Below, one piece after another: positions 40,090-61,009 of a stretch of 64,000 nucleotides of DNA. Numbering within the stretch: position 1 is the stretch's first letter; every line of letters starts with the position of its first letter. Below the pieces are notes generated by a model. That model ran no database searches, was not told the DNA's origin, and saw only the letters and a list, made by a program, of their open reading frames with translations. Source of the stretch: Asanoa hainanensis (GTDB lineage: Bacteria; Actinomycetota; Actinomycetes; Mycobacteriales; Micromonosporaceae); the NCBI RefSeq assembly GCF_900188485.1, contig NZ_FZPH01000002.1, forward strand, positions 496,001 through 560,000, given 5' to 3'. The position numbers and the translations under genes are program-made.

Positions 40090-40354
40090 CCGCCGCTGCG
40101 GGTCGCCGTGCGGCACGGCTGAGCCGCGCGGTCTGGCACCGCCCTTGGTGGTCGCGAAGCCGGACGGCTCAGCGTGCGCTCCGCGGTCGCGGAGATGCGC
40201 GGTTCGCGCTTTGCCGCGCGGCCTGAGCGCTTTGTGACGCGGGCCGCGCGGCTTGGCCCGTGTCCTCTGGTCGCGGAGTCGGGCGGCTTGGCCGCCTTGT
40301 AGTCGCGGATCCAGGCTGCGTAACCGCCCCCTGCTGCCGGGGCGGCCTCGCCGC
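40090..40354. repeat. Tract A: degenerate repeats in a convergent gap
   Basis: The 265-bp gap between convergent stops is built from imperfect copies of a motif related to GGTCGCGGAGTCGGGCGGCT (for example near 40150-40172, 40189-40212 and 40269-40290). Copies are interspersed with GCGCGGCYTGRSC. No gene or clear terminator stem stands out. It is the first of six such gaps, each with a different unit. Confidence 0.6.
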
Positions 40355-41071
40355 TTAGCCGCCGGCGGTGGTCGGGGGCGGCGAGGCCGGCGCGGTGGCC
40401 GGTGGGGTCGCCGGTGGTGGCGGTGCGTCGTCGCTGGCGAAGACGCCGGTCGCGAACAGGATGCCGAGGAGGATTCCGATGGCACCGATCGCCACCGCGC
40501 CGATCATCATCGGGTCGCGGGCGGGCGGCGGGGTGCCGGGGCGGCCGCCGCGGGCGGACCGGCCGCCGCCGCTAGCTCCGCCGCCGTAGACCGGGCCGCC
40601 GGCCGGAGGTCCGCCGTAGGTCGGGCCTGACCCGCCGTAAGTGGGTCCGCCGCTGGTGGGGCTGCCGTAGGTGGGTCCGCCGCTGGTGGGGGAGCCGTAA
40701 GTCGGCCCGCCACTGGTGGGTGTGCCGTAGTTAGGCGCGCCACTGGTGGGGCTGCCGTAGGCGGGCCCGGGGCTGGTCGGGGTGCCGTAGGTGGGTCCGC
40801 CGCTCGTGGGGCTGCCGTAGGTCGGGCCGCTGCCCATGGCGCTGTCGTAGACCGGGCCGCCACTGGTCGGGCTGCCGTACGTGGGCCCCGGGCTGCTCGG
40901 GGTGCCGTAGGTCGGGCCGCCGCTCGTGGGGCCGCTGCTGGTGGGGCCGCCGTAGACGGCTCCGCCGCTGGTGGGTTCGGGGGCCGCACTGGCCGGCGCG
41001 GTCGGGTCGCCGTAGCCGGGGCCGCCGTACACCCGGCCGCCCGGTCGCTCCTGCGGTTGCATGGCAGGCAT
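40355..41071 (-). CDS. Repeat-rich tail-anchored membrane protein
   Basis: This 238-aa protein is built from about ten copies of a decapeptide-like unit (consensus PTSGGPTYGS) at residues 38-150. A Gly-rich stretch and basic region (SARGGRPGTPPPARDP) come next, then one transmembrane helix (MIGAVAIGAIGILLGILFATGVF, about 190-212) and a Pro/Ala/Thr tail of 25 residues. The repeats are hydrophilic and probably intrinsically disordered in the cytoplasm, with the short tail outside. I do not know a function. A second Met at codon 4 is an alternative start. Confidence 0.7.
   Translation of the reverse strand: MPAMQPQERPGGRVYGGPGYGDPTAPASAAPEPTSGGAVYGGPTSSGPTSGGPTYGTPSSPGPTYGSPTSGGPVYDSAMGSGPTYGSPTSGGPTYGTPTSPGPAYGSPTSGAPNYGTPTSGGPTYGSPTSGGPTYGSPTSGGPTYGGSGPTYGGPPAGGPVYGGGASGGGRSARGGRPGTPPPARDPMMIGAVAIGAIGILLGILFATGVFASDDAPPPPATPPATAPASPPPTTAGG
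40618..40960 (-). repeat. In-frame tandem DNA repeats coding PTSGGPTYGS units
   Basis: Approximately 30-bp units, in frame within the membrane protein gene, encode PTSGGPTYGS-like decapeptides with variants ending GTP, SSP or NYG. High nucleotide identity between adjacent units (for example 40640-40730) suggests recent expansion and possible copy-number variation. Confidence 0.75.
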
Positions 41072-41077
41072 AGTCGC

Positions 41078-42064
41078 CTATCGTGGCACTCTCTCGCCAG
41101 TGGGATGGCGGAACGTGCGACGGTACGTGGTCGGGGACACACCGATCGCCGCGTGCAGTTGTTGCCGCAACGCCGCTGCCGTGCCGAAGCCGGCGTGCCG
41201 GGCCACCTGGTCGACGGCCAGCACCGTGGTCTCCAGGAGCCGCCGCGCGTGGTCGGTGCGCTGCTGCAACAGCCAGCGGGCCGGGCTCAACCCGGTCTCC
41301 TCGCGGAACCGCCGGGTGAACGTCCGCACACTCATGTTGGCGTGCGCGGCCATCGCGGCCAGCGTCACCGGCTCGTCGAGCCGTTGGAGCGTCCAGGAGC
41401 GGGTCGCCGCCGTGGACGCCGCGCCGTCGCCGGCCGGCAGCGGCCGTTCGATGAACTGCGCCTGGCCGCCGTCGCGCCAGGGCGGCACCACGCAGCGCCG
41501 GGCGGCGGTGTTGGCCACTGCCGAGCCGTGGTCCCGGCGGATCACGTGCAGGCAGAGGTCGATCCCGGCGGCCACCCCGGCCGAGGTGAGGATGTCGCCG
41601 TCGTCGACGAACAGCACGTCCGGGTCCAGGTCGACGGCGGGGTGGAAACGGCGGAACCGATCCGCGTACGCCCAATGCGTGGTGGCCTTGCGTCCGTCGA
41701 GCAAGCCGGCGGCGGCCAGCACGAACGAGCCGGTGCAGATCGACATGACCCGGGCACCGCGGGCGTGGGCCGCCCGGAGCGCGTCGGTGATCTCGGGATC
41801 CAGGGTGCCGGACGTCAGCGCCGGCCCGTCATGGATGCCGGGCACGATCACCGTGTCGGCCGTCTCGGTCAGCGCCAGGTCGTGGTCGGGGTGCACGGTG
41901 TAGCCGGCGGTGCAGCGGACCGGCCGCCCACCCGCGGTGCACATGCCCACCTCGTAGAAGTGCTGGCCGGCGTCGTCGCGGGCGGTGCCGAAGACCTGCG
42001 CGGGGGTGCCGAGGTCGAGGCCGACCACGTGGTCGACGGCGAGGACGGCGATGCGATGGGTCAT
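41078..42064 (-). CDS. GlxA-type AraC-family regulator (DJ-1/PfpI domain)
   Basis: This 328-aa regulator has an N-terminal DJ-1/PfpI-like domain (residues 1-190) with the nucleophile-elbow Cys in MSICTGSFVLAAAGLLDG. Two C-terminal AraC helix-turn-helix motifs follow (LAAMAAHANMSVRTFTRRFREE; VDQVARHAGFGTAAALRQQL). GlxA-family regulators sense small metabolites through the amidase-like domain. It is divergent (60 bp) from an MFS transporter gene, which is its most likely target. Confidence 0.9.
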   Translation of the reverse strand: MTHRIAVLAVDHVVGLDLGTPAQVFGTARDDAGQHFYEVGMCTAGGRPVRCTAGYTVHPDHDLALTETADTVIVPGIHDGPALTSGTLDPEITDALRAAHARGARVMSICTGSFVLAAAGLLDGRKATTHWAYADRFRRFHPAVDLDPDVLFVDDGDILTSAGVAAGIDLCLHVIRRDHGSAVANTAARRCVVPPWRDGGQAQFIERPLPAGDGAASTAATRSWTLQRLDEPVTLAAMAAHANMSVRTFTRRFREETGLSPARWLLQQRTDHARRLLETTVLAVDQVARHAGFGTAAALRQQLHAAIGVSPTTYRRTFRHPTGERVPR

Positions 42065-42124
42065 GGCCGAATTATTGCGCATGATGGCTGTCGGGCCACT
42101 CGCGGAGCGTACCCGGGATCGCTC

Positions 42125-43420
42125 ATGCTCTTTCTCGTGCGCCGTCTCGTTCATCCTGCCTGGCTCGTGGCCGCCGTCGCCTTCGTCGCGTTGATCGGCG
42201 CGGCCGGGTTCCGGGCCACGCCCAGCGTCATGCTCCACCCGCTGCACGAGGAGTTCGGCTGGCAGCTGGCGACGATCTCCGCCGCCGTGTCGGTCAACCT
42301 GCTGCTCTTCGGCCTCACCGCGCCGTTCGCGGCCGCGCTGATGGACCGGTTCGGCATCCGCCGGGTGGTCGCGGCCGCGCTGGTGCTGGTCTCGCTGGGC
42401 AGCGGGCTGACGGTGTTCATGCGCACCAGTTTCGAGCTGATCCTGCTCTGGGGCGTGCTGGTCGGCGTCGGCACGGGCTCGATGGCGCTGGCGTTCGTGG
42501 CCACGGTCACCGGCCGTTGGTTCGTCAAGCGCCGGGGCCTGGTCACCGGCGTGCTCACCGCCGGCGGTGCGACCGGCCAGTTGATCTTTCTGCCGGTCCT
42601 CGCGTACCTGATCGAGCAGTCGAGCTGGCGTACCGCCTCGCTGGTGGTCGCCGGCGCCGCGCTGACCGTCGTACCCCTGGTGCTGTGGCTGTTGCGTGAC
42701 CACCCGAGCGACCTCGGGCTGCCCGCCTACGGCGCGACCGAGGTCGTGCCGCCGGTGCCGGCCGGCGGCGCCGCCCGGCGCGCGCTCGGTGCGCTGCGCG
42801 ACGCGTCCCGGACCCGCGCGTTCTGGCTGCTCGCCGGGGGCTTCGCGATCTGTGGCGCGACCACCAACGGCCTCGTCGGTACCCACTTCATCCCGGCGGC
42901 GCACGACCACGGCATGACCGAGACGACCGCCGCGTCGCTGCTCGCGCTGGTCGGCCTGTTCGACATCGCCGGCACGATCGCCTCGGGTTGGCTGACCGAC
43001 CGGTTCGACAGCCGGATCCTGCTCGGCGCCTACTACGCGCTGCGCGGCGGCTCGCTGCTGCTGCTGCCGGCGCTGTTCGGCGACGTCGTGCGCCCGTCGA
43101 TGGTGGTGTTCATCCTGTTCTACGGGCTGGACTGGGTCGCGACGGTGCCGCCGACGGTGGCGCTGTGCCGCGAGTACTTCGGCGATCGCGGCGCCGTCGT
43201 GTTCGGCTGGGTGTTCGCGTCACACCAGATCGGCGCCGCGGTGGCGGCGTCGGCGGCGGGCATCGTGCGCGACCAGCTCGGCAACTACGACCTGGCCTGG
43301 TACGTGGCCGGGCTGCTGGCCATCGGCGCCGCAGGGCTGTCGCTGATGCTGTTCCGCCGCCGGGGCGCCGTGGCTTTCGCTCCCGCTATGGCTGGAGCAC
43401 CCGGATCCGTTCCACGGTGA
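42125..43420 (+). CDS. MFS transporter
   Basis: This 431-aa major facilitator has twelve hydrophobic segments with a central cytoplasmic loop (about 195-225). The RFGIRR loop and the second-half GWLTDRFDSRILLG match the MFS signature between helices 2-3 and 8-9. The N-terminal HEEFGWQLATISAAVSVN pattern is typical of monocarboxylate/oxalate-type transporters. The substrate is unknown; the divergent GlxA regulator probably controls it. Its 3' end overlaps the convergent 74-aa gene by 35 bp. Confidence 0.9.
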   Translation: MLFLVRRLVHPAWLVAAVAFVALIGAAGFRATPSVMLHPLHEEFGWQLATISAAVSVNLLLFGLTAPFAAALMDRFGIRRVVAAALVLVSLGSGLTVFMRTSFELILLWGVLVGVGTGSMALAFVATVTGRWFVKRRGLVTGVLTAGGATGQLIFLPVLAYLIEQSSWRTASLVVAGAALTVVPLVLWLLRDHPSDLGLPAYGATEVVPPVPAGGAARRALGALRDASRTRAFWLLAGGFAICGATTNGLVGTHFIPAAHDHGMTETTAASLLALVGLFDIAGTIASGWLTDRFDSRILLGAYYALRGGSLLLLPALFGDVVRPSMVVFILFYGLDWVATVPPTVALCREYFGDRGAVVFGWVFASHQIGAAVAASAAGIVRDQLGNYDLAWYVAGLLAIGAAGLSLMLFRRRGAVAFAPAMAGAPGSVPR

Positions 43421-43610
43421 CCAGCGCCTGAAGCCGGCCGAGCGGCGTGCCGTCGCGGGCCAGCTGCTGGCCTTCGAGCCAGACCTCGCCGTCGTAGAAG
43501 CCCGACAGGTCGTCGCGCACCTTTTCCACGCGGAGGAACAAGGTGTGCGGTGAACCGGTGAACTTCCAGGTGCCCGGCGGGCATTCGATCACATTGCCAG
43601 CGTCGATCAT
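43386..43610 (-). CDS. Small beta-rich hypothetical protein, 74 aa
   Basis: Starting at ATG 43610, the protein reads MIDAGNVIECPPGTWKFTG, then LFLRVEKVRDDLSGFYDGEVWLEG and ends VTVERIRVLQP. Alternating hydrophobic residues suggest a single beta-barrel or sandwich. I do not recognise a named family. It is divergent from the XRE regulator gene (174 bp between starts) and may be its regulatory target; small proteins often accompany WhiJ/DUF397 loci. Confidence 0.65.
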   Translation of the reverse strand: MIDAGNVIECPPGTWKFTGSPHTLFLRVEKVRDDLSGFYDGEVWLEGQQLARDGTPLGRLQALVTVERIRVLQP

Positions 43611-43784
43611 GATTGCCCCCGGCCCGCCGGTGGATTTCGCCGCTTCCGACTGGTCATGTGTTGAATGTTGGGCTTGAGCCTTCCCAAACGCAATGTTGCG
43701 GAGCAGAATTCCGCCCACGCGGTACGAAGACGCAATGATCTGCTGGTGTCCACTACGGAATCGCTGTGTCGGGGAGGAACGAAC

Positions 43785-44672
43785 ATGCCGACCGAAGACC
43801 ACGGTTCGACCGTTCCACGCCGGCAACTCGGCCGATATCTGAGAAGGGCTCGCGAAGAGGCCCAGGTCACGGTCAAAGCGGCGGCGGACGCATTGGAATG
43901 GTCGACGCCCCGAATCTGGCGCATCGAAAACGGAACAGTAGGCATGCGCGCCCTCGACGTCAAGGCGATGTGCGAGCTTTACGGTGCGTCCGACGATCTG
44001 ACGACAGCGCTGGTGGCGCTCGCCCGCGAAACCAAATCGAAGGGCTGGTGGCAGTCGTACGGGGACGCACTGCCGAGTTGGTTCGAGTTGTACGTCGGCC
44101 TGGAGTCGGCGGCGAGCCGGATTCGCTATCTGCAGACCGACATCGTGCCGGGCCTTTTGCAGACGAAGGCCTATACGCGTGAGGTGATCGCCCTGGACCA
44201 TCCGGAGTTGGGGCCGGAGGAGCAGGAAAAGCGGTTGGCGGTCCGGATGGAGCGGCAGAACCTGCTGGTCCGGCGCGTGCCCGCGGCGCCGTCGCTGGAG
44301 GTCATCCTGAGCGAGGCGGTGTTGCGTCGCCCGATCCAGGACCGCGAGGCGATGGTCGGGCAGATTCGGTATCTCGCCGAGGCGAATGAGCGGCCAAATG
44401 TCACCGTGCGTTATCTGCCGCTCTCCGTCGGTCTACACCATTGGGCATCGACGGGCGGTTTCGCCATTCTCGACTTCCCCGAACAACGCGGCCGCGATCC
44501 CGAGCCACCAACGGTCTACAGCGACGGCCCGACCGGCGCTCTCTACCTCGACAAGACCCGAGAGGTGGATATGTACGAGTCAATCTGGCGAAGCGCTTCC
44601 GAGCGAGCGTACGACCGTGCACAATCGACTCGCGCAATCCGGGCGCTCTCGGAGGAGTTGTACAATGAGTGA
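43785..44672 (+). CDS. WhiJ/Scr1-like XRE regulator (DUF5753)
   Basis: The protein is 295 aa from ATG 43785 (GGGAGGAACGAAC upstream). It has an N-terminal HTH_31/XRE domain (residues 13-70, LGRYLRRAREEAQVTVKAAADALEWSTPRIWRIENG) and the C-terminal DUF5753 domain (about 90-285) with IVPGLLQTKAYTREVI and a FAILDFPE segment. Such proteins are abundant in sporulating actinomycetes and pair with DUF397 proteins, in a manner likened to toxin-antitoxin systems. The stop overlaps the DUF397 ATG by 8 nt. Confidence 0.92.
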   Translation: MPTEDHGSTVPRRQLGRYLRRAREEAQVTVKAAADALEWSTPRIWRIENGTVGMRALDVKAMCELYGASDDLTTALVALARETKSKGWWQSYGDALPSWFELYVGLESAASRIRYLQTDIVPGLLQTKAYTREVIALDHPELGPEEQEKRLAVRMERQNLLVRRVPAAPSLEVILSEAVLRRPIQDREAMVGQIRYLAEANERPNVTVRYLPLSVGLHHWASTGGFAILDFPEQRGRDPEPPTVYSDGPTGALYLDKTREVDMYESIWRSASERAYDRAQSTRAIRALSEELYNE

Positions 44673-44865
44673 CGAAGCAGTCACCTGGACGAAGTCGACT
44701 TATAGCGGTGCCAACGGCGGATGCGTCGAATGGGCAACGCTGGACAGCGAGATCGGCGTCCGCGACTCGAAAGACAAGACCGGCCCCGTCCTAACCTTCA
44801 GCCGCACGGCCTGGCAGTCCTTCGTGGACGCCACCAGCCGCGGCGACTACAGGCCGGACGCGTAA
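44665..44865 (+). CDS. DUF397 small partner protein
   Basis: The 66-aa protein is a textbook DUF397: WTKSTYSGANGGCVEWA, then GVRDSKDKTGPVLTFSRTAWQSFV. DUF397 proteins are thought to bind and modulate the adjacent DUF5753 regulator, as proposed for the WhiJ locus. The ATG lies inside the regulator gene, so translation is coupled. Confidence 0.92.
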   Translation: MSDEAVTWTKSTYSGANGGCVEWATLDSEIGVRDSKDKTGPVLTFSRTAWQSFVDATSRGDYRPDA

Positions 44866-44893
44866 CGCACGTCGGCCGACCGCACGGCACGCA

Positions 44894-44922
44894 CGAGACC
44901 CGCGAGATACTCGCGGGTCTCG
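44894..44922. terminator. Perfect 13-bp hairpin after DUF397
   Basis: CGAGACCCGCGAG (44894-44906) and CTCGCGGGTCTCG (44910-44922) form a 13-bp stem with a 3-nt loop, 29 bp after the DUF397 stop, between convergent genes. It probably terminates transcription from one or both sides. It also lies inside the in-frame extension described for the next gene. Confidence 0.7.
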
Positions 44923-45002
44923 TCGTCCGTCGAGTAGATCAACGTGCCCCGCTCGCTCTTGGCGTTCCAGGGCCGCCAGGTCCTGGTCCATGAGGGGTGA
45001 CG

Positions 45003-46157
45003 CTAGTCGAGCCGCCAGGTGTCGCTTTCGGTGGCGACCAGAAGGCGGACGTTCGCGGCCGCGCAGATCTCGTGCCAGGCCCGGTCTTCGAGCTTCGTGA
45101 CCAGCAGGTACGCCTGGGTGCGGCCGTCGGCGTCGAGGCGGTGCCGGTAGTCGAGGATCTGGCCGAGACCCAGCCGCAGCCGGTCGGTCTCGCTCGGACC
45201 CAGCGTGGTGCGGGCCTCCACGACGTGCAACCGGCCGTCCGGGGTGCGCCAGGCCAGGTCGGCCCGGGGGCGGGTGGGCTGGAACGGCTTGATGTCGATG
45301 TCGTTGAGCTTGGTCATCAGCAGGACGAGCAGGCGGTCGCGCTCGTCCCGGGCGGCCTCGTGCGCTTCCGCGCCGGCGGCCTGCCACTCCGGGAACGCTC
45401 CTAGCGCCTCGCGGCTCCCGTACCCGTGCGTCTCGTCCAGGGCTGGAATGGCCAGGTCCGCCGGGTCGGGCAGGGACAGCGCCTCGGCCGCGGCCCAGGC
45501 TTCCTCGGCCAGTTCCGGGTCGTAGCTCTTCTGCCACGCGAACTGGCCGGTGGCGACCAGGCGGGCGTTCATCAGCCGGATCGCCTCGCCGACCGCGGGC
45601 TGGTCGAGGAACCACAGCAGGCCGTCGATGTCGGGGCAGTGGTAGACGGTCGCGTCCTCGGCGAACGTGCGCAGCCCGTCGGTGCGCCGGGTGATGCCGA
45701 ACTTGTTGAGGTCCTCGGCGCGCAGCGAGCCCTCGGCGAGAGCCCGGCTGACCGGGGTGTCGGCCATCCGGAAGATGGTGGTGATCCGGCCGTCGTCGAA
45801 GTAGCTGATTTCGGCCGCCCAGCACATGCCGACGGTCAGCCGGAACCAGCGTTCGGCGCCATTCGCGTACGGGGTGAGCAGCCAGTGCTGACCCGCGGAC
45901 TCGGCGGCGGCCGGGATCGTGGTGCGGATGATGATGCCGGCGATGCCGAGGGCGACCTCGCGCAGGCTCTTCGCGTCGGCGTCGTTGATCGCCCGGATCA
46001 GGCCCGGCAGCCGTGGTCCCGCGGACGGGAGTGCGCCGAACGGCTGCGGTTCGCCATCGGCCCGGACCACCCAGTCGGCCAGGGCCTCGCGAGTCATGTA
46101 GGACCAGAAGCCGGACGTACGGTTCGCGAACTCGGCCGCCAGCGACTGGCTGTTCAT
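45003..46157 (-). CDS. Hypothetical protein with nuclease-like C-terminus
   Basis: This 384-aa protein starts at ATG 46157. The N-terminal two-thirds is of no family I recognise, with WLLTPYANGAERWFRLTVGM and AEISYFDDGRITTIF. The C-terminal part has PRADLAWRTPDGRLHVVEART, then LRLGLGQILDYRHRL and YLLVTKLEDRAWHEICAAANV. The D-x-x-W...V-E-A pattern followed by helix and strand resembles a restriction-endonuclease-like (PD-(D/E)XK) fold, which is inference. After its TAG stop the same frame stays open for 51 more codons (see findings). Confidence 0.7.
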   Translation of the reverse strand: MNSQSLAAEFANRTSGFWSYMTREALADWVVRADGEPQPFGALPSAGPRLPGLIRAINDADAKSLREVALGIAGIIIRTTIPAAAESAGQHWLLTPYANGAERWFRLTVGMCWAAEISYFDDGRITTIFRMADTPVSRALAEGSLRAEDLNKFGITRRTDGLRTFAEDATVYHCPDIDGLLWFLDQPAVGEAIRLMNARLVATGQFAWQKSYDPELAEEAWAAAEALSLPDPADLAIPALDETHGYGSREALGAFPEWQAAGAEAHEAARDERDRLLVLLMTKLNDIDIKPFQPTRPRADLAWRTPDGRLHVVEARTTLGPSETDRLRLGLGQILDYRHRLDADGRTQAYLLVTKLEDRAWHEICAAANVRLLVATESDTWRLD

Positions 46158-48200: not shown

Positions 48201-48373
48201 GCGTTCAGCTTCGCTAGCTGGCCGTCGGCGGTCATTTCGAGTCGACGGTCCCTGGTGTCGACGGTTTAGCGGCGGTCGGCGGTCATCCGCGCCGGCGGCC
48301 GTGGCTCGCCGGCCGCGGTAGTCGGCGTCGCCGGTCGTGGCTCGCGGGCCGCGGTAGTCGGCGTCGGCGGTCT
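48201..48373. repeat. Tract B: 36-bp direct repeat in a convergent gap
   Basis: Two tandem 36-bp copies (48301-48336 and 48337-48372) differ at only two positions; both contain GGCCGCGGTAGTCGGCGTCG. The preceding 100 bp carries shorter related pieces (GTCGGCGGTCAT twice, near 48225 and 48275). The tract fills the whole gap between the cupin and the LigD-like stop codons, and no gene is seen in it. Confidence 0.7.
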
Positions 48374-49447
48374 CTAGCCGGTGTCGACGCGTAGCCAGTC
48401 GTTGGTGCGGCGGCCTGGTGTGTAGCCGGCGTTTAAGCGTTTGGCGATGACACCGGGCAGGCCCTGTTCCTGGGCGGCGGCGAGGGCGAACTCGCCGCCG
48501 CCGTGGAAGGTCGGGGGCGTCTGCCAGGCCGGGCCGGACAGCGCCAGGCCGTCGAGCAGTTCGCGCCGCTGGGCGTACGGCAGGTCGGTCGTGTGCCGTC
48601 CCTCCAGCCAGAGCAGGTCGTAGACGAGGTAGCTGACGACCAGCCCCGGCGGTGGTCGGCGTCCGTTGACGGTCTTCGGGGCAGGTCGGACCCGGCCCTG
48701 CCGGTCGAACGCGACGATCTCACCGTCGAGCACCGCCTCGGTGGGTGCCAGGGCCGCCCCGAGCTCGCGGACCGCCGGGTAGCTGGCACTGATGTCCTGG
48801 TCGGAGATCGAGGTGAGGCGCACCCGCCCACCGGAGACGTAGGCGACCGCGCGCGTGCCGTCCCACCACATCTCGAAGGCCCAGTCGTCGTCAGGTGTGG
48901 GAAGCGCGTCGGCGGGAGTCGGCCGGGAGGGCCGGACCAGGTCGGGCAACGGCTCCCACGCGTCGGCCGGCGGCGACATGCGGCGGATCATCCACTCTTC
49001 GCGCTTGCCGGGCTCGGGCCGCGCGGTGCGGAACAGCACGTAGCGCCCCGACGCCCGCTGGCCGCGCAGCGTGAACATGACCTCGTCCGGCTTCCACTTC
49101 TCCGTCTCGTACGTGCCGGTGTCGAACACCGTCATCCGCCCACCGCCGTACTCGCCGGCCGGGATGTCGCCGTGGAAGTCGAGGTACTCCATCGGGTGGT
49201 CTTCGGTGTGCACGGCGAGGTGGTTGCGCACCTGGTCGCGAGGTAACCCGCGGGGCACGGCCCAGGACACCAGCACGCCGTCGCGCTCGAGCCGCAGATC
49301 CCAGTGCAGCGCCCGAGCATGGTGCTGCTGGATGACGAACCGGTTGCCCGGACCCGACTGCCGTGGTGCTTTCGCCGGCACGGGTTCAGGGGTGCGTCCC
49401 GCATCACGCTTGCGCCGGTATTCGTCCAGCCGGTCGGCCATGGTCAT
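48374..49447 (-). CDS. LigD-type phosphoesterase with degenerate ligase domain
   Basis: This 357-aa protein starts at ATG 49447 (or 49441). Residues 36-155 form the 3'-phosphoesterase domain of LigD-type repair proteins, with FVIQQHHARALHWDLRLE (His42, His48, Asp50) and TEDHP (His84) intact. Residues 185-357 follow the ATP-dependent ligase adenylation domain, with LDGEIVAFD and GVIAKRLNAGYTPGRR. However, the nucleotidyl-transfer Lys is replaced by Trp194 (FEMWWDG instead of the usual FEMKWDG), motif V reads DWLRVD, and no OB-fold follows. It can hardly ligate DNA. It may trim 3' ends in double-strand-break repair or play a structural role. Confidence 0.85.
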   Translation of the reverse strand: MTMADRLDEYRRKRDAGRTPEPVPAKAPRQSGPGNRFVIQQHHARALHWDLRLERDGVLVSWAVPRGLPRDQVRNHLAVHTEDHPMEYLDFHGDIPAGEYGGGRMTVFDTGTYETEKWKPDEVMFTLRGQRASGRYVLFRTARPEPGKREEWMIRRMSPPADAWEPLPDLVRPSRPTPADALPTPDDDWAFEMWWDGTRAVAYVSGGRVRLTSISDQDISASYPAVRELGAALAPTEAVLDGEIVAFDRQGRVRPAPKTVNGRRPPPGLVVSYLVYDLLWLEGRHTTDLPYAQRRELLDGLALSGPAWQTPPTFHGGGEFALAAAQEQGLPGVIAKRLNAGYTPGRRTNDWLRVDTG

Positions 49448-49520
49448 ATTGTCGGGGATGACCCGGCGCCGCGCATCGCCGCGGACGGCATGCCAACCTG
49501 ATGAACGGGTAGGGAAGCTC

Positions 49521-50306
49521 ATGAGCTCATCGACCGCGCAACCAACCGTCACGCTGCCCGGCGACGTACGGATGCCGCTGCTCGGCTTCGGCACGTGGCA
49601 GGCACACGGAGAAAGCGCGCACCGGGCCGTGACCGTGGCGATCGAGGCCGGATATCGGATGATCGACACAGCCACCGCGTACGGCAACGAGGACCTGGTC
49701 GGCCGAGCGATCGCCGACAGCGGCGTGCCGCGCGAGGACATCTTCATCACCACAAAACTCCCCGCCGAGCGGGTCGGCCGAGAACAACGCACGATCGACG
49801 AGAGCCGCCAGATGCTCGGCGTCGACCAACTGGACCTCTGGCTCATCCACTGGCCACCATCCCGCGGCGGCCTGGTCGACACCTGGCACCGCATGATCGA
49901 GATCCGCGACGCCGGCCAAACCCGCGCGATCGGGGTCAGCAACTACTCGCTGGCCCAGATCGACGAACTGATCGCCGCAACGGGCGAAGCGCCGGCGGTC
50001 AACCAGATCAAATGGGGCCCGAGACTCTGGGACACCGCGGAAGTCCAGGGTCACCACGAGCGCGGCGTAGTGCTCGAGGGCTACAGCCCATTCAAAACCA
50101 CCCGCCTGGGCGACCCGGTGCTCAACCGCATCGCCGAAACCCACCGCGTCTCCCCGGCCCAGGTAGTCGTCCGCTGGCACATCCAACATGGAATCGTGTG
50201 CATCCCGAAGTCGGTGACGCCAGCCCGCATCCGATCGAACGCGGACGTCTTCGGCTTCGAGCTCTCCGACGAAGAGATCGCCGCCATCGACGCGATGGGC
50301 CAGTAA
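49521..50306 (+). CDS. Aldo/keto reductase
   Basis: This 261-aa AKR (family 5-like) starts at ATG 49521 (AGGGAAG upstream). The active-site residues are Asp-Tyr in AGYRMIDTATAYGNE, Lys in FITTKLP and His in LWLIHWP. The C-terminal IPKSVTPARIRSNADVFGFELS binds NADPH. It reduces aldehydes or ketones; a physiological substrate cannot be named. It starts 73 bp from the divergent LigD-like gene. Confidence 0.92.
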   Translation: MSSSTAQPTVTLPGDVRMPLLGFGTWQAHGESAHRAVTVAIEAGYRMIDTATAYGNEDLVGRAIADSGVPREDIFITTKLPAERVGREQRTIDESRQMLGVDQLDLWLIHWPPSRGGLVDTWHRMIEIRDAGQTRAIGVSNYSLAQIDELIAATGEAPAVNQIKWGPRLWDTAEVQGHHERGVVLEGYSPFKTTRLGDPVLNRIAETHRVSPAQVVVRWHIQHGIVCIPKSVTPARIRSNADVFGFELSDEEIAAIDAMGQ

Positions 50307-50741
50307 CCTCGCCACCCCGACCCGCGCCCGGGTCCGTCCAGCGCAGGACGTCGGCCTGCGCCTGGGTCCGCGGAGCGTGCCGGCCTTGCCTCGGTCCAGG
50401 ACCGCGGAGCGCGCCAGCTGGCCTCCGCGCGGGTCCGCGCACTGGGCCACGCTGACCACCGCCTCGGTCTGCGGCGCGCCGCCCCGACGTCTGCGAAGCG
50501 TGTTGGCCTGGCCTCCGTCGGGGTCTGCGGAGCGCGCGACGCTGGCCTGCGCGTGGGTCCGCGGAACGGGCCGCCCTCCGGCCCGCCTGGGCTGCGGCGC
50601 CGGCAGCGCTGGCCTCCGCCCGGTCCGCGCTGCACGCTGCGCGGACCGGGCATGGCGGCGTCGCGCCGTGTCGGCTGTCGTGTGGGTGCCCGGTCGGGCC
50701 ACGCAGTCGCGGCAGACCCTCTGACCTCCGGCCCCGGTGCG
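50307..50741. repeat. Tract C: degenerate ~34-bp repeats, 435-bp convergent gap
   Basis: The whole gap between the aldo/keto reductase and monooxygenase stops is made of imperfect units of roughly 33-40 bp with the core GGGTCYGCGGAGCGYGC and an often following GCTGGCCTCCGCG (for example at 50376, 50406, 50443, 50513 and 50547). Long frames through it on either strand are repeat artefacts. I see no gene or RNA here. Confidence 0.65.
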
Positions 50742-52085: not shown

Positions 52086-53105
52086 ATGGTGGAAGAAGCG
52101 CCCTACCGGCGGATCGCGGCCGAGATCCGGGAGCGCATAGCTCGCGGCGACCTCGCGCCCGGCGACCGCATCCCGTCGACGCGCGAGATCACTCGCGACT
52201 GGGGCGTGGCGATGGCGACGGCGACCAAGGTGATCGGCGCGCTACGCGACGCCGGGCTGGTGGAGACCAGGTCGGGCGCCGGCAGTGTCGTCATCGAGCG
52301 CAGTGCTCCGCCCGTCGAGATGGTCGTCCAGCCCGAGGTCCCGCCGCACGCCGGCGGTTTCCATGGTCCGGCCGCACCGCGGCTGCGCCGGTCAGCCGAC
52401 GGGGAGCTCAGTCGCGAACGGGTCGTCCGCTCGGCCGTCGCGATCGCCGATGCCGAGGGCCTGTCGATGTTGACGATGCGGCGGGTGGCCGCCGATCTGG
52501 GCGTGGCCACGATGTCCCTCTACCGGCACGTCCCGGGCAAAGACGAGCTGATCCTCGCCATGATCGATGCCGTTTTCGGCGAGGCGCCGCTGCCCGCCGA
52601 CCGCCCTGAGCACTGGCGCGACCGGCTGGAAGCGGCGGCGCGCCAGATGTGGCGGGCGTTCGCCGCGCACCCGTGGGCCGCCGACCCGTTGTCGCTGACG
52701 CGTCCGCAGCTGCTACCCAACCTGCTGCCCTATTCGGAGTGGAGTCTCGACACCTTGCACACACTGGGGTTCGGCGTCGACGAGATGATGCACATCCACC
52801 TATCGGTCTTCGGCCATGTGCGATCCAGTGCCATGAGCCTCGATTCCGAGCTACGGGCTCGCGCCGACACCGGCGTCACCAACGACGAGTGGGCCGACAT
52901 CCACGGCGGCGAGATCGAGGCCGTCCTCGGCGCGGCTCCACCGGAGCGGTCCGCCGGTCTGCGCTTCGTCGCCGAGCAGGGCTTCGACTACGACATCGAG
53001 GCGGTCTTCGAGTCGGGCCTACGCCTGCTGCTCGACGGCGTCGCGGTGGCCCTGGCCCGCCGGGAGGTGAACGGCGATGAGCAGGTGGACCTGTCCGTCG
53101 TGTGA
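52086..53105 (+). CDS. GntR-TetR fusion transcription regulator
   Basis: This 339-aa protein has two complete DNA-binding domains. Residues 5-73 form a GntR winged helix (YRRIAAEIRERIARGDLAPGD, then WGVAMATATKVIGALRDAGLV). After a linker, residues 108-155 form a TetR helix-turn-helix (SRERVVRSAVAIADAEGLSM, then VAADLGVATMSLYRHVPGKDEL). A TetR_C-type ligand domain (about 165-335) completes it. It probably controls the divergent monooxygenase. Two HTHs could read the two palindromes in the promoter. An AAAGGAGGATCG ribosome site is strong. Confidence 0.9.
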   Translation: MVEEAPYRRIAAEIRERIARGDLAPGDRIPSTREITRDWGVAMATATKVIGALRDAGLVETRSGAGSVVIERSAPPVEMVVQPEVPPHAGGFHGPAAPRLRRSADGELSRERVVRSAVAIADAEGLSMLTMRRVAADLGVATMSLYRHVPGKDELILAMIDAVFGEAPLPADRPEHWRDRLEAAARQMWRAFAAHPWAADPLSLTRPQLLPNLLPYSEWSLDTLHTLGFGVDEMMHIHLSVFGHVRSSAMSLDSELRARADTGVTNDEWADIHGGEIEAVLGAAPPERSAGLRFVAEQGFDYDIEAVFESGLRLLLDGVAVALARREVNGDEQVDLSVV

Positions 53106-53493: not shown

Positions 53494-53939
53494 CCCGCGG
53501 CGCAACCGGATGGGGAGGATGCCGTGATTCGGGTCTGACGCGGACAGATCAGCTAAGGAATGTCCGCCGCACCGGCAACGAGCGGCGTTCGCGACACCGG
53601 TCCCGGGCGGTACGAGCGGGGCCGGTCCTGGGCGGCGCAGCGGCGCAGTTTGGGCCGAGTTCGCCGCGCTGGCCTCGGGCGGGGTTGCGTGCTCGCATCG
53701 GGGCGGCGTTTGCGGCGCTGGTCTTCGGCGGCGTTGATGGCGCCGGCTTGGGCGGCAATTCGTGGCGCCGGTCTTGGGCCGAGTTCGCCGCGCGGGTTTC
53801 GGGGAGCGCTGCCGCGCTGGTCTTGGGCGGCGTTTTGTGGTGCCGGTCCCGGGCGCGGTTTGCCGCGCCGGTCTCGGGCGCGGCTCGCCGTGGCGGTGTC
53901 CACCACGACGGCGCGCCCGCGACCGGCACTATCGATCGG
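53494..53939. repeat. Tract D: about twelve ~25-bp degenerate repeats
   Basis: In the 446-bp gap between convergent stops, units of 22-27 bp follow each other from about 53602 to 53905, near the pattern GGCGGCGTTTGCGGCGCTGG followed by TCTTG. Clear examples lie near 53703, 53729, 53753, 53829 and 53855. Units differ by substitutions and small indels and are not multiples of three. The flanking 100 bp is non-repetitive with no gene seen. Confidence 0.7.
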
Positions 53940-55328: not shown

Positions 55329-55357
55329 GCTGCTCCTTCCGGGGACGAGGGAGGAGA

Positions 55358-55371
55358 TGGGAGCGCTTCCA
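55358..55371. promoter_or_regulatory. CebR/CelR-type operator (TGGGAGCGCTTCCA)
   Basis: This 14-bp site differs at one base from the TGGGAGCGCTCCCA palindrome bound by CebR/CelR LacI-family repressors in cellulolytic actinobacteria. It lies 30 bp upstream of the GH12 ATG. No CebR gene is in the window. Confidence 0.8.
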
Positions 55372-55474
55372 TCGACACTAGTCTACGTCCAAGGGGATAG
55401 ATAGAGGTCCCGACAGCGAGTAATGTTCTGGCTTCATTGGGTGGCCCCTCGACCGCCTCGGAGGCTTCGTCCAC

Positions 55475-56584
55475 ATGCTCCCGTCTACGCTGCGCGTCCT
55501 CGTCGTCGGCGCCGGCATCGCTGGTCTCGCTGTGGCCCGGGCGCTCCGCCTGGCTGGCTACCGCCCCGACGTCGTCGAGAAGCTGCCCGCCACCACCGTT
55601 CCCGGCGCCGGGATCTTCCTGCCGGGCAACGCCGCGCGGGCCCTGCGTGACCTCGGCCTCGAAGACCCGGTCCAGCCACTCGGTGACGTGGTCGAGCGAC
55701 AACGCTTCCTCGACGAGAGCGGCAGCGAGCTCTGCGAGGTCGACCTCGGCAAGCTCTGGGCGGGCGTGGGCGAGTGCCGTGCCCTGTCTCGCGGCGAACT
55801 GCAGCGCGTGCTGCTCGCGTCCGTCGACGGTGAGGTCCGCTACGACACCCCCCTGGCCCGCCTCGACGTCGACACCGACGGCTCCGCGCGCGCCACGTTC
55901 GGTGACGGCTCGATCTCGTCGTACGACCTGGTGGTCGGCGCGGACGGCCGCAAGTCGGCGGTGCGCGCCCTCGCCGCGTTAGGCGGGCCGGCCCGCCCGG
56001 TCGGCCAGGTCGTCTACCGCAGCGTCGTCTCCGGTGGGCCCGCGATCGCCGAGTGGACCGCCCTGCTCGGCCTTCGTTCGGCCTTCATCGTCATGCCGAT
56101 GGGTGACGGACGCCTCTATCTCTACGCCGACGAGCCCGGCACGAGCGCACCGGCCGACCCGCTGGCGCGGCTCCGCGAGGTGTTCGCCGACTTCGGCCCG
56201 CCGGTGCCGGACATCCTCGACGCGGTCGACAAGGTGCAGGTCGCGCTTACCGACGAGGTCGAGATCGCGTGCTGGTCGCGTGGCCCGGCGCTCCTCGTCG
56301 GCGACGCCGCGCACGCCACGTCGCCGACCCTGTCCGAGGGCGCGGCCATGGCGCTCGAAGACGCGGTGGTCCTGGCCGAGGCACTCGGCAACGCGGGGTC
56401 GGTGCCCGAGGCACTCCGCCGCTACGAGAGCCGCCGCCGCCCCCGCACGAAATGGGTCCTGGACCGCACCCGCGACCGCGACCGCACCCGCGACGTCACG
56501 CCGGCCCTGCGCGACCCGCTTCTCCGCGGCCGAGGCGGCCGCATCTTCCGGGAGCACTACCGCCTCCTGGTCGATCCGGTCTAA
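55475..56584 (+). CDS. FAD-dependent monooxygenase
   Basis: This 369-aa group A flavoprotein monooxygenase has the FAD motif LRVLVVGAGIAGLAVARALR, the DG motif DLVVGADGRKSAVR and the second FAD motif GPALLVGDAAHATSPTLSEGAAMALED. The C-terminus is short and basic (DRTRDRDRTRD). It differs from the monooxygenase at 50742 and is not adjacent to a regulator. It is followed at once by an 18-bp tandem repeat. Substrate unknown. Confidence 0.9.
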   Translation: MLPSTLRVLVVGAGIAGLAVARALRLAGYRPDVVEKLPATTVPGAGIFLPGNAARALRDLGLEDPVQPLGDVVERQRFLDESGSELCEVDLGKLWAGVGECRALSRGELQRVLLASVDGEVRYDTPLARLDVDTDGSARATFGDGSISSYDLVVGADGRKSAVRALAALGGPARPVGQVVYRSVVSGGPAIAEWTALLGLRSAFIVMPMGDGRLYLYADEPGTSAPADPLARLREVFADFGPPVPDILDAVDKVQVALTDEVEIACWSRGPALLVGDAAHATSPTLSEGAAMALEDAVVLAEALGNAGSVPEALRRYESRRRPRTKWVLDRTRDRDRTRDVTPALRDPLLRGRGGRIFREHYRLLVDPV

Positions 56585-56601
56585 GGACCAAGCGACCCGA
56601 C

Positions 56602-56744
56602 GCGAGCCGGGGTTTGGATGCGAGCCGGGGTTTGGATGCGAGCCGGGGTTTGGATGCGAGCCGGCGCTCTGGCGCGAGCCAGCCCTTGGGTGGGAGCCGG
56701 GGTTGGAGGTGAGCCGGCGCTTGGACGCGAGTCAGCGCTCCGGT
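56602..56744. repeat. Tract E: 18-bp tandem repeat, about eight units
   Basis: Three perfect copies of GCGAGCCGGGGTTTGGAT (56602-56655) are followed by about five increasingly divergent copies (56656-56744). The exact-to-degenerate gradient is typical of a minisatellite growing at one end. It lies 18 bp after the monooxygenase stop and is part of a 478-bp gap (56585-57062); the rest of that gap has no gene that I can see and should contain the ctaD promoter. Confidence 0.85.
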
Positions 56745-57062
56745 GCGAGGCTGGTCGACGACGGCGGTTCCCGGTCCACGTGGTCCAGGGGAAGCGACCC
56801 GCCCCGCGCGAGACGGCAGCCACCGACAAGGCCGAGCTGACGCGGATCTAGGCCCCCGTACACCCTGGTGCGTCAGATCTGTGATCTTTCGCCCGCGTTC
56901 CGTGACCGACTTTCCGGGCAACCCGGGAAGCGTCCCTAACGGAGCCCCGACCCGCTCCGGCCAGCGCGGGTGTCAAGAGAGGTTCTCACCACCCAGCGCG
57001 GGAACCCGCAGATGCGAGGACTATTCTGCCTCCGACACAAACGACGATTGCGGAGGCCTGTG

Positions 57063-58817
57063 GTGACCACCGTTGCACCGAAGCCGATCGTGACCCGGCC
57101 CTGGCCGGTCCGCCAGCCGGTGAAGGGCTCGGCCTTCGCGCGCCTGCTGCGCACGACCGATGCGAAGCAGATCGGGATCATGTACATGGTCACGAGCTTC
57201 GCGTTCTTCCTCATCGGCGGGTTGATGGCGCTGCTGATGCGCGCCGAGCTCGCTCGGCCCGGCATGCAGTTCCTGTCGCCGGAGCAGTACAACCAGCTGT
57301 TCACGATGCACGGCACGATCATGCTGCTGTTCTTCGCGACGCCGATCGTGTTCGCGTTCGCGAACTTCGTGGTGCCGTTGCAGATCGGCGCCCCGGACGT
57401 CTCGTTCCCGCGCCTGAACAGCTTCGCCTACTGGCTGTACGCGTTCGGCGGCTCGATCGCGCTCGGCGGCTTCTTCACCCCGGGCGGCGCCGCTGACTTC
57501 GGCTGGTTCGCCTACGCGCCGCTGAGCAGTGTCGAGCACACGCCGGGTGTCGGCGCCAACATGTGGATCGTCGGTCTGGCCATCTCCGGTCTGGGCACGA
57601 TCCTCGGTGGTGTCAACATGATCACCACGATCCTGACGCTGCGTGCCCCGGGCATGACGATGTTCCGGATGCCGATCTTCACCTGGAACATCCTGGTCAC
57701 CAGCCTGCTGGTCATCATGGTCTTCCCGCTGCTGGCGGCGGCGCTGTTCGCGCTGGCGGCAGACCGCATCCTCGGTGCGCACGTGTACGACGCGGCGACC
57801 GGCGGACCCATGCTCTGGCAGCATCTGTTCTGGTTCTTCGGCCATCCCGAGGTCTATATCGTCGCGCTGCCGTTCTTCGGCATCATCAGCGAGGTCATCC
57901 CGGTCTTCTCCCGCAAGCCGGTCTTCGGCTACAAGGGCCTGGTCGGCGCGACCATCGCGATCGCGGCGCTTTCGATGAGCGTGTGGGCGCACCACATGTT
58001 CGCGACCGGCCAGGTGCTGCTGCCGTTCTTCAGCTTCCTGAGCTTCCTGATCGCCGTACCCACGGGCATGAAGTTCTTCAACTGGATCGGCACGATGTGG
58101 CGCGGCCAGATCAGCTTCGAGACTCCGATGCTGTTCGCGATCGGCTTCCTGGTGACGTTCCTCTTCGGCGGTCTCACCGGCGTCCTGCTCGCCAGCCCGC
58201 CGATCGACTTCCACGTCTCCGACACGTACTTCGTCGTCGCGCACTTCCACTACGTGCTCTTCGGCACGATCGTGTTCGCCGTCTACTCGGGCATCTACTT
58301 CTGGTTCCCGAAGATGTTCGGCCGCATGCTCGACGAGCGCCTGGGCAAGATCCACTTCTGGCTGACGTTCATCGGCTTCCACACCACCTTCCTGGTGCAG
58401 CACTGGCTGGGCGCGGAAGGCATGCCCCGGCGGTACGCGGACTACCGGCCGGACGACGGCTTCACCACGCTCAACGAGATCTCCACGATCGGCGCCTTCG
58501 TCCTGGGCATCTCGACGCTGCCGTTCCTCTACAACATCTGGAAGTCCTACAAGGCCGGGCCGGTCGTGCTGGCCGACGACCCGTGGGGCTACGGCAACTC
58601 GCTGGAGTGGGCGACCTCGTCCCCGCCGCCGCTGCGCAACTTCGACAAGATGCCGCGGATCCGGTCCGAGCGCCCCGCGTTCGACCTGAAGTTCCCGGAG
58701 CTAGCCGCCGGCCGCTCGGTAGCCGGCCCGCCGGAAGGCGGCGCCAAACCGCTGACCACCGAGTCCGACGGCGGCGCCAGCTACCAGGAAGACACCGCGA
58801 GCAACGTCGACCGCTAG
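57063..58817 (+). CDS. ctaD: Cytochrome c oxidase subunit I
   Basis: The protein is 584 aa from GTG 57063, with GGAGG 7 nt before it; an ATG at 57012 lacks such a site. Twelve membrane helices carry the haem and copper ligands: His83 in [22 protein letters not shown] (CuB His and cross-linked Tyr), [11 protein letters not shown] and [14 protein letters not shown]. This is the catalytic subunit of the aa3-type terminal oxidase, acting in the cytoplasmic membrane. No ctaC, ctaE, ctaF or qcr genes are adjacent, as is usual for actinobacterial ctaD. The C-terminal tail (about 550-584) is hydrophilic. Confidence 0.95.
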
Positions 58818-58827
58818 CTAGCGCTCG

Positions 58828-58883
58828 AACGAAAGAAGCGGCGCGCAGGCCCAGACACGGGTCGGCGCGCCGCTTCTTTCGTT
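58828..58883. terminator. Bidirectional intrinsic terminator with 18-bp perfect stem
   Basis: AACGAAAGAAGCGGCGCG (58828-58845) and CGCGCCGCTTCTTTCGTT (58866-58883) are perfect inverted repeats with a 20-nt loop. The purine/pyrimidine ends give U-rich 3' sides on both strands. The site separates ctaD from the convergent membrane-protein gene and touches the latter's stop codon. Confidence 0.85.
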
Positions 58884-59437
58884 CAGACGATCAGCACGAT
58901 CGCCGCAACACCGAGGATCACGTCAACGACGAAACACCATTCGGCGTACGAGCGAGGCACGACTCTGTTGACCCTGTGGTGATAGGCGTCCCAGGCCGCG
59001 TGCGCGAGCAGCCCGAGCGAGATCAGCACCCCTCCGAACACCAGCGATCCGGCCTCGATGGCGATCACCGCCACGGCGGCGAACAGCACGGCGGCGACCA
59101 CCTGAAGGCCGAAGCCGGGCGCCCGCCGCACGGTACCCAGCACCACGAAGACGACGGACGCGACCAGCAGCGCGTACGCCACGTTCAGCTCGAAGATCCG
59201 CAACGGCCCGACCGCGACGGCGCCGATCAGCACGGCCGGCCAGGTGATGCCCGGACGGCTGAACGATGCGGGCACCAGATAGGCGAGCGGACAGAGGACG
59301 AGCAGGAAAGCCAGGCCGCGTACGTCGTCGAGGCCGTACAGCGTCACCGCGACCAACGGGATCGCGGCCAGGGTGGGCCATCGCCGGGCCAGCCACCGCA
59401 GCAGCGACGGGTTCTGGTCGGTCGTCGTGGAAGTCAT
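58883..59437 (-). CDS. Hypothetical integral membrane protein, 184 aa
   Basis: This protein has about six hydrophobic segments over residues 20-184 (for example LVAVTLYGLDDVRGLAFLLVL, VLLVASVVFVVLG and CFVVDVILGVAAIVLIV). HAAWDAYHHRVNRVVPRSYAEW near the C-terminus has clustered His and Asp residues on one side of the membrane, which may bind a metal or haem. I do not recognise a named family. It is divergent from the second GlxA-type regulator (91 bp), so it could be controlled by it. Confidence 0.75.
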   Translation of the reverse strand: MTSTTTDQNPSLLRWLARRWPTLAAIPLVAVTLYGLDDVRGLAFLLVLCPLAYLVPASFSRPGITWPAVLIGAVAVGPLRIFELNVAYALLVASVVFVVLGTVRRAPGFGLQVVAAVLFAAVAVIAIEAGSLVFGGVLISLGLLAHAAWDAYHHRVNRVVPRSYAEWCFVVDVILGVAAIVLIV

Positions 59438-59528
59438 GACCCCGACCGTGCCAGCGGGCCCGCGCGGCGGAAACGGTACGCGATCGACAGGTCCGATTCC
59501 CTGGGATCGGCGGCCTAAGGTCAGGGAT

Positions 59529-60545
59529 ATGGAGCCTCGTCACATCGTGATGGTCGGGTACGACGGTGCCGAGCTGCTCGACATCGCCTGCGTCACGTCG
59601 ACCTTCGGGCTGGCCAACGCGATCGGCCAGCTCCGACCGGGCTATCGCGTCTCGCTGGCCACCCCCGGCGGCCACCCGATCCGCTGCGACAGCGGCCTGG
59701 TGCTGCAGGCGGAGCTGGCCCTGGAGCGACTAACCGGCCCGCTGGACACCGTGATCGTCTCGGGCGGTTTCGGCCACGAGGCGGCGGCGGACAACGCCCT
59801 GGTGGTCGCCCACGTGCGCCGGCTGGCCCGGGAGAGCCGCCGGATCGCGTCGGTCTGCACCGGCGCGACGGTCCTCGCCGCGACCGGCCTGCTGGACGGT
59901 CACCGCGCGACCACCCACTGGCGGTTCGCGCCGCGACTGGCGAGCCGCTATCGCGACGTCCGCGTCGACCCCGCACCGATCTTCATCCGCGAGGGCCGCA
60001 TGGCCACCGCCGCCGGCGTCACCAGCGGCCTGGACCTGACGCTGGCGTTCGTCGAGGAGGACCACGGCCCCGAGTTGTCGCGCCAGGTCGCCCGAGACCT
60101 GGTCACGTACCTGCAAAGACCGGGCAACCAGGCACAGATGAGCGTGTACGTGGCCCCGCCCGCCCCCGAGAACGACCTGGTCCGCCGAGCCGTCGACCAC
60201 GTGGTCAGCCACCTGGACACGGACCTGTCCACGGCGCGCCTGGCCGACGCGGTCGGGGTGAGCGCCCGCCATCTGACCAGGCTGTTCCTGCGCGCGCTAG
60301 GCGACCCACCGGCCCGCTTCGTCCGCGCGGCCCGCGTCGACGCGGCGGCGCGGTTGCTTGACTCGACCGACCTCCCGATGCCCGAGGTGGCGGCCCGCAC
60401 GGGCTTCGGCTCGGTCGAAGCGTTGCGGCAGGCCTTCGTGGTCCGCTTCGGCATGCCGCCGGCGAAGTTCCGCGCCGTCTCCCGCCGCCCGGCGACCGAC
60501 CACCCGGACCAAGACAGAGCAACGGCTGACTCGAAACCTGCGTAG
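59529..60545 (+). CDS. GlxA-type AraC-family regulator (second copy)
   Basis: This 338-aa protein has an N-terminal DJ-1/PfpI-like domain (residues 3-185) with Cys in IASVCTGATVLAATGLLDG. Two AraC helix-turn-helices follow: LADAVGVSARHLTRLFLRAL and MPEVAARTGFGSVEALRQAF. It has the same architecture as the regulator at 41078 but is a distinct protein. Its likely target is the divergent membrane-protein gene or its own promoter. It is followed by repeat tract F. Confidence 0.92.
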   Translation: MEPRHIVMVGYDGAELLDIACVTSTFGLANAIGQLRPGYRVSLATPGGHPIRCDSGLVLQAELALERLTGPLDTVIVSGGFGHEAAADNALVVAHVRRLARESRRIASVCTGATVLAATGLLDGHRATTHWRFAPRLASRYRDVRVDPAPIFIREGRMATAAGVTSGLDLTLAFVEEDHGPELSRQVARDLVTYLQRPGNQAQMSVYVAPPAPENDLVRRAVDHVVSHLDTDLSTARLADAVGVSARHLTRLFLRALGDPPARFVRAARVDAAARLLDSTDLPMPEVAARTGFGSVEALRQAFVVRFGMPPAKFRAVSRRPATDHPDQDRATADSKPA

Positions 60546-61009
60546 TCAGCAGGCCGCCTGCTCTACTACCGAACCCGTAACGTTCCTCCGCCGTGCGTTG
60601 TGTGCCGTTTCGAACACCGGCCCGCGCACCCAGACCCGCGGCGGCGCCGGTCTCGTTGCTGGCCGCGCGCGTCATCGCCGATCCGCAGGCCAACGGCGTG
60701 GCCTTCGCGCTGGTGTAGCCGGCCTTCGCGGAAGCGGTGGTTGATTGGTCTCGTCGGCCTGACCGACCCGGAACACAAGACGCCGTGCGACTTGTGCGGT
60801 CCCGGCCCGTGCGGCTCGTGCGGTCCCGGTCCGTGCGGTCCCGGTCCGTGCGGTCCCGGTCCGTGCGGCCCTTGCGGTCCCGGTCCGTGCGGCTCGTGCG
60901 GTCCCGGTCCGTGCGGTCCCGGTCCGTGCGGCCCCGACCCGCGCCTCCGTAGTGGCCGGTGCCAGTCCCTGGCCACGCAGCGATCCAAAACGCGAACGCC
61001 CGCCCGGCC
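60546..61009. repeat. Tract F: 15-bp tandem repeats in a convergent gap
   Basis: In the 464-bp gap, 60794-60940 is a tandem array of GTGCGGTCCCGGTCC with a few 9-bp short forms (GTGCGGCTC). All units are multiples of three, so every frame is open across it; one frame reads Cys-Gly-Pro-Gly-Pro repeats. No ribosome site or conserved flank supports a protein. The left 250 bp contains no feature I can support. Confidence 0.75.

Follow-up and report, generated by a model that had tools for sequence, protein, structure and literature searches.

Tandem-repeat arrays in the 3′ flanks of Asanoa genes: probable local birth and turnover between species

Six intergenic gaps of a 64 kb window (bases 496001–560000 of the 785 kb contig C28 in an 8.64 Mb Asanoa genome, G000, Micromonosporaceae) were originally predicted to consist mainly of short tandem repeats, with a different unit in each gap and five of the six lying between convergent stop codons. 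The question raised by this locus is why such tracts should collect between genes, i.e. whether converging transcription requires them, a dispersed element left them or they arose where they stand. As set out below, we consider it probable that the tracts are minisatellites born locally in unconstrained DNA downstream of genes; most likely they are unconstrained by-products of copying and not a dedicated device.

Arrays were detected with Tandem Repeats Finder (TRF) and with a self-similarity score compared, gap by gap, with first-order Markov shuffles. For the class counts a gap was called array-bearing at p<1e-3, and only gaps of 100–1000 bp were scored, shorter and longer ones being left out of all rates. 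The survey comprised 2.76 Mb (2,759,367 bases) in seven stretches from six Asanoa genomes, namely contig C28 of G000, the initial 400 kb of its contig C31 and parts of G001, G002, G003, G004 and G005; genes were called with our own caller and not taken from curated annotation. With the window excluded, arrays were found in 31/117 convergent, 27/401 tandem and 11/320 divergent gaps. After removal of three coding repeats (see below) the convergent count became 28/114, the tandem (27/401) and divergent (11/320) counts remaining the same, which corresponds to an odds ratio of 9.1 for convergent against divergent gaps (p 5e-10) and of 4.5 for convergent against tandem gaps (p 1e-6). Convergent gaps still ranked first at the stricter threshold of p<1e-5 (20/114, with 7/320 divergent and 20/401 tandem), and a TRF cover of at least 25% was reached by 19/114 convergent, 4/320 divergent and 19/401 tandem gaps.

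Before removal of the three coding repeats, convergent gaps had the highest rate in each of the seven stretches, the lead being least clear on C31 (6/18 convergent, 4/43 divergent, 9/56 tandem) and in G005 (2/9, 0/14 and 3/20, respectively). The predicted excess of repeats in convergent gaps over the other two classes was therefore borne out, and it was not refuted by the scoring of 1.19 of 8.64 Mb of the window's own genome (with the window excluded, arrays in 11/42 convergent, 14/180 tandem and 7/133 divergent gaps) together with the stretches of the five relatives. The shuffle null is random and of first order, so single counts can move slightly (a rerun gave 3 instead of 4 divergent and 6 instead of 7 tandem array gaps on the contig), and it is lenient, as seen from the 11/320 divergent gaps passing p<1e-3; the comparisons between classes are independent of this leniency. 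Outside Asanoa, a small sample of six short loci (three mutually orthologous ones from Micromonospora, one from Plantactinospora and two from other family members, all called with the Asanoa gene model) contained arrays in 3/10 convergent, 0/19 divergent and 1/21 tandem gaps. None was found in E. coli among 3 convergent, 3 divergent and 10 tandem gaps, a set too small to use.

Two gene 3′ ends border a convergent gap and one borders a tandem gap, whereas a divergent gap has none. Counted per 3′ end, the array rates in gaps of 400–1000 bp were practically identical, 0.139 for convergent (10/36 gaps) and 0.146 for tandem gaps (12/82), while only 1/44 divergent gaps of this length held an array. 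Furthermore, in tandem gaps of at least 250 bp with a TRF array, the array lay closer to the upstream stop in 14/17 cases. From the equal rate in long gaps and this proximity it follows that the arrays are mainly a feature of gene 3′ ends. A driver specific to convergence is weakened by the same long-gap rate, although short gaps still favor convergence, as discussed below.

Within the window, five of the six gaps were confirmed as tandem-repeat tracts by both TRF and the shuffle score (Table 1), and these five satisfy the usual description of a bacterial minisatellite, i.e. head-to-tail units of about 10–100 bp above chance. The claim did not hold for the sixth, at 40090–40354: no TRF array was detected there, its shuffle p was 0.04, and its gapped self-alignment (z 1.8) was no stronger than that of the array-free gap 18271–18737 (z 1.9). 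The latter is the one convergent gap of 100–1000 bp in the first 40 kb, a region in which the absence of such tracts had been correctly noted. The layout was likewise described accurately, since convergent stops enclose four of the five confirmed gaps and the fifth follows a stop in a same-strand gap, which in our gene calls extends to 57062. The five arrays fall within 12.9 kb, a local cluster when arrays are shuffled among contig gaps of the same class (p 0.006, the span having been chosen post hoc). Convergent gaps carried arrays in 4/7 cases in the window and in 5/24 on the remaining contig; because its rate exceeds that of the rest of the contig, the window is not a fair sample.

Table 1 Gaps examined in the window and adjoining features (window coordinates)
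Feature	Position	Strand	Details
Convergent gap with 265 bp of GC-rich filler, no significant tandem array	40090–40354		
Protein gene with coding 30/120 bp repeat (GGPTYGSPTS-type)	40355–41062	-	adjoins the gap 40090–40354
Convergent gap with array	48201–48373		36 bp unit, only 2.3 copies, at 48289–48372; p 2e-11
Convergent gap with degenerate array	50307–50741		34 bp unit, higher order of 123 bp, at 50353–50600; p 2e-7
Convergent gap with 25 bp array	53494–53939		array at 53616–53880; p 6e-11
Hairpin	53867–53927		left arm 53867–53882 (also the last repeat unit), right arm 53912–53927
Same-strand gap with 18 bp array	56585–57062		TRF rows at 56602–56749; p printed as 0
Convergent gap with 15/24/39 bp array	60546–61009		array at 60783–60936; p printed as 0

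Comparison with relatives, in which orthologous gaps were defined as those between reciprocal-best flanking genes that are still adjacent, unveiled a turnover of arrays. The gap at 48201 measures 25 bp in G001, the closest relative, and 4 bp in G002, and carries other arrays in gaps of 349–439 bp in G003 and G004 (G005 not traced). At 50307, five of the six species possess arrays with different units and the gap is 22 bp long in G003, whereas the array at 53494 is restricted to the window genome among the five species traced, the four relatives showing none at p<1e-3. Arrays occupy the 56585 gap in 4/6 species; its 3′ part, ahead of the COX1 gene, is similar across six species as judged by eye. 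The 60546 gap was traced in G004 only and measures 80 bp there, and the filler at 40090 is missing in both relatives traced (gap of -4 bp in G004 and of 4 bp in G005). In convergent gaps with an array in either species the mean aligned fraction was 0.38, 0.18, 0.02 and 0.00 against G001, G002, G003 and G004 (n=6, 2, 2, 3), compared with 0.91, 0.79, 0.84 and 0.82 in plain divergent gaps (n=27, 13, 18, 22); plain convergent gaps gave 0.93, 0.28, 0.94 and 0.71 (n=1, 2, 1, 2), too few to serve as a control. Evidently, orthologous gaps gain, lose or swap arrays with different units, yet they do so at recurrent gaps.

This independence of the units, among loci and among species at a single locus, supports the view that no single dispersed family is involved. 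An origin of the tracts as remnants of a mobile or dispersed family of the REP/BIME type appears scarcely credible on these grounds, although REPs likewise favor the gaps after gene ends, according to the available text of PMC3733652. Moreover, 56585–56840, the one tract searched, had no match in its own genome other than itself among the 40 of 86 first-look candidates that were scored.

The origin of some units could be read from the sequence itself. When the last 36 bases of a neighboring gene were sought in the adjoining gap (p<1e-4), such tail copies were present at 9/92 3′ borders of array gaps as against 3/557 3′ borders of plain gaps, and at only 2/1069 5′ borders of all gaps (1/50 in array gaps). 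Among the 60 array gaps that have a 3′ border, convergent and tandem taken together, seven carry a tail copy, and none of the seven lies in the window; in the G004 orthologue of the 56585 gap, a 71 bp unit includes the last bases and the stop codon of the gene. A second kind of seed was found at 53494, where the array runs up to a hairpin adjoining the stop of a GH12 gene on the - strand. A similar hairpin stands beside this stop in all five species compared (G004 not traced). The 25 bp unit of the array corresponds to the left arm of the hairpin, being exact at 53867 and matching at 15/16 positions at 53842, and six more copies match 11–13 of 16 positions. The bare count of eight arm-like sequences is within the range of the shuffles (mean 3.4, maximum 9), and the case therefore rests on the in-register exact and 15/16 copies and on the score for extra arm copies (z 5.1). 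Hairpin-arm seeding at 50307, which had been seen by eye, is not claimed, as the automatic search chose another stem and the column-shuffle p was 1.0. The idea of local birth at gene 3′ ends is thus supported, but it was directly seen for a minority of arrays only.

The following course is inferred as regards the mode of copying, the part played by promoters and the neutrality of the arrays. A short stretch near a gene 3′ end, be it the gene tail, the arm of a terminator-like hairpin or other filler, would be duplicated in tandem, probably via slipped-strand synthesis or exchange at short homologies. The array would then grow, diverge through point mutations and later be deleted or overwritten. 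Insertions may be purged from promoter regions, i.e. from divergent gaps and, in tandem gaps, from the downstream part, while promoter-free 3′ flanks would tolerate them; convergent gaps would be richest in arrays because they combine two 3′ flanks with the absence of a promoter.

Several observations weigh against this neutral account. Most arrays show no identifiable seed, 53/60 array gaps with a 3′ border being devoid of a tail copy. An association with hairpins reached p<0.05 in just 4/23 convergent arrays (9/23 at p<0.1), and in 1/21 tandem and 1/3 divergent arrays, so that hairpin seeding was rejected as a general rule, the link being modest for convergent arrays and not seen for tandem ones; an extra arm copy was present in 10/15 convergent array gaps, a partly circular count, since copies are inevitable for any hairpin that lies within an array. 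The lead of convergent gaps per 3′ end persists in shorter gaps (0.151 vs 0.092 for tandem gaps at 200–400 bp and 0.071 vs 0.020 at 100–200 bp), a lead that would follow from short tandem gaps being promoter for the most part but would also fit a real effect of convergence. On C31, furthermore, the convergent and tandem rates given above approach each other.

Another objection is recurrence, which was analyzed for gaps traced in at least three species (29 convergent, 118 tandem and 31 divergent) by comparison with shuffling. Arrays coincided in 15 species pairs at convergent gaps vs 2.7 expected (p ~0.001), or vs 6.2 expected when only convergent gaps longer than 20 bp were considered (p 0.0035), and in nine species pairs at tandem gaps vs 0.4–0.8 expected (p ~0.0005), while divergent gaps gave none vs 0.03 expected. 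The signal stems from six gaps, 32625, 48201, 50307, 81962, 56585 and 103045 in window coordinates, of which 81962 and 103045 are located beyond the window and three are the window's own array gaps; the 50307 gap alone contributes 10 of the 15 convergent pairs. As pure neutrality predicts random sites, recurrence and the cluster in the window both count against it.

A further deviation concerns strand composition. The place of dnaA in G001, G003 and G004 indicates that the + strand of the window is probably the leading strand; the assignment was carried over to G002 and G005 by synteny, and the convergent and divergent arrays of C31 were excluded. Convergent arrays were A-poor and T-rich on the leading strand in 16/20 cases (p 0.012 in a post hoc test), as compared with 34/76 plain convergent gaps that are T-rich on this strand, and tandem arrays were T-rich on the gene strand in 14/21 (p 0.19). 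The array in the 60546 gap is T-rich and nearly free of A on its + strand (1 A, 30 T).

These deviations are what would be expected if some gene 3′ ends were mutational hot spots which actively generate tandem duplications, so that arrays are reborn with unrelated units at the same gaps in several species. Trapped supercoils, R-loops, head-on encounters of replication and transcription, or forks stalled at hairpins are candidate causes. Beside recurrence, the cluster in the window and the strand asymmetry, two reports may be counted in favor, one of positive supercoils in E. coli and yeast between genes that converge (available text of PMC8360656) and one of the slippage of archaeal replicative polymerases at a hairpin in vitro (available text of PMC4134008). 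We nevertheless regard hot spots as unlikely, since long tandem gaps match long convergent ones in their rate per 3′ end, which speaks against convergence itself as the driver, the hairpin association is weak overall, and recurrence, based on six gaps, could instead mark gaps that are tolerant. A more far-reaching proposal, which we put forward tentatively and hold to be doubtful, is that some 3′ ends are heritable, sequence-independent nurseries of minisatellites: the place would be kept for the age of the genus, the repeat would be erased and re-seeded from a gene tail or terminator arm, and the A-poor, T-rich bias of the leading strand would mark the copying.

With respect to function, the arrays might act as barriers or terminators of transcription between converging genes. 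In line with this, terminator-like hairpins (p<0.01) are frequent in convergent gaps, occurring in 35/89 plain convergent and 11/32 array gaps but in only 15/320 plain divergent ones, and in a few arrays the units or arms can form hairpins. Strong hairpins (p<1e-3), however, are rarer in array gaps (5/32) than in plain convergent gaps (28/89). No excess of RNA folding over shuffles was found in the array gaps either, the median z being -1.10 (29 gaps) vs -1.41 for 40 plain convergent gaps taken as a sample, with no gap of either set longer than 500 bp; the window arrays reached z -0.3 to -1.7 on the better strand. A terminator array should fold more stably than its composition predicts, and the array gaps do not. 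As units also differ from locus to locus, and several orthologous gene pairs manage with gaps of 4–25 bp and no array, a barrier function is improbable. A role tied to convergence finds no support in these data: long tandem gaps are as rich in arrays per 3′ end, even though convergent gaps lead among the shorter ones, no additional RNA structure is present and the arrays turn over between species. The original suggestions of transcription barriers, condensin sites or by-products of replication–transcription conflict likewise gained no positive evidence.

It is very improbable that the tracts represent undetected or decayed protein-coding repeats. Three array-like convergent gaps in the relatives did turn out to be a missed repeat-coding gene: those in G001, G002 and G003 are orthologues of the gene at 40355–41062 and were removed from the final counts. 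On the other hand, many periods are not multiples of three (for instance 5, 7, 16, 17, 19, 25, 47, 62, 64 and 71 bp), and the called reading frames stop before the tracts of the window. The product of the small gene 40355–41062 itself has a long repeat followed by a single hydrophobic segment, and its repeat number varies in G001, G002 and G003.

Concerning the surroundings of the tracts, the bordering genes include a cupin, a LigD-like phosphoesterase/ligase, an aldo-keto reductase, FAD monooxygenases, a GH12 cellulase with CBM2 and cytochrome oxidase subunit I. The cupin gene (+) and the LigD-like gene (-) flank the gap 48201–48373, and the stop codon of an FAD monooxygenase gene precedes the array in the 56585 gap by 17 bp. 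The LigD-like gene, 48374–49522, combines a LigD 3′-phosphoesterase domain and an ATP-dependent ligase domain in one protein, with no Pfam match to a polymerase domain, and the gene at 52086–53105 encodes a regulator in which a GntR helix-turn-helix precedes a TetR domain. Neither tRNAs nor Rfam matches at the gathering score were found in the 64 kb of the window. The nearest named relatives of its genome are Asanoa ishikariensis, A. iriomotensis and A. siamensis. Beyond the window, at about 630000–678000 of C28, there is an island whose longer frames have a low third-position GC (about 0.55–0.84) and in which the native codon model yields few genes; it is perhaps acquired DNA.

How do the Asanoa arrays relate to known systems? 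As with intrinsic terminators, the 53494 gap has a hairpin next to the stop in each of the five species examined, but the array there consists of extra copies of one arm and is unable to add complete hairpins. REP and BIME elements also lie mostly between unidirectional and convergent genes (available text of PMC3733652), and the arrays, too, favor gaps that border on gene 3′ ends; this is a shared habit and not kinship, as REPs form palindromic families with many copies per genome whereas the array units are locus-specific. One palindromic family with many genomic copies was not found, one tract having been searched genome-wide. In a survey of prokaryotic satellites (PMC6749651, available text), tandem repeats of 10–200 nt are described, some of them intergenic, with Streptomyces coelicolor and Amycolatopsis among the tabulated species; compact bacterial genomes are not expected there to retain intergenic satellites. 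The survey requires at least four regular repeats, and its main text does not use the word "convergent". In literature searches on repeats, orientation, terminators, slippage and Asanoa genomes, no listed title or abstract opening described gene-end arrays with changing units, which does not prove their absence from print.

Asanoa thus offers a natural system for studying the birth of tandem repeats, their possible seeding by terminators and gene tails, and the relative weight of mutation pressure and tolerance in their placement, and it cautions against taking tracts of this kind for regulatory devices. What remains of interest is that arrays recur at particular gaps and show a strand bias. 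The closest counterparts are the intergenic minisatellites or variable-number tandem repeat (VNTR) loci of bacteria, such as the mycobacterial interspersed repetitive unit (MIRU)-VNTR loci of mycobacteria, which have in common with the Asanoa arrays head-to-tail units of 10–100 bp, an intergenic position and an unstable length. Unlike VNTR loci, the Asanoa arrays are many different, single-locus and heavily diverged sequences which are biased to gene 3′ ends and, in sister species, are replaced by new units at the same gap.

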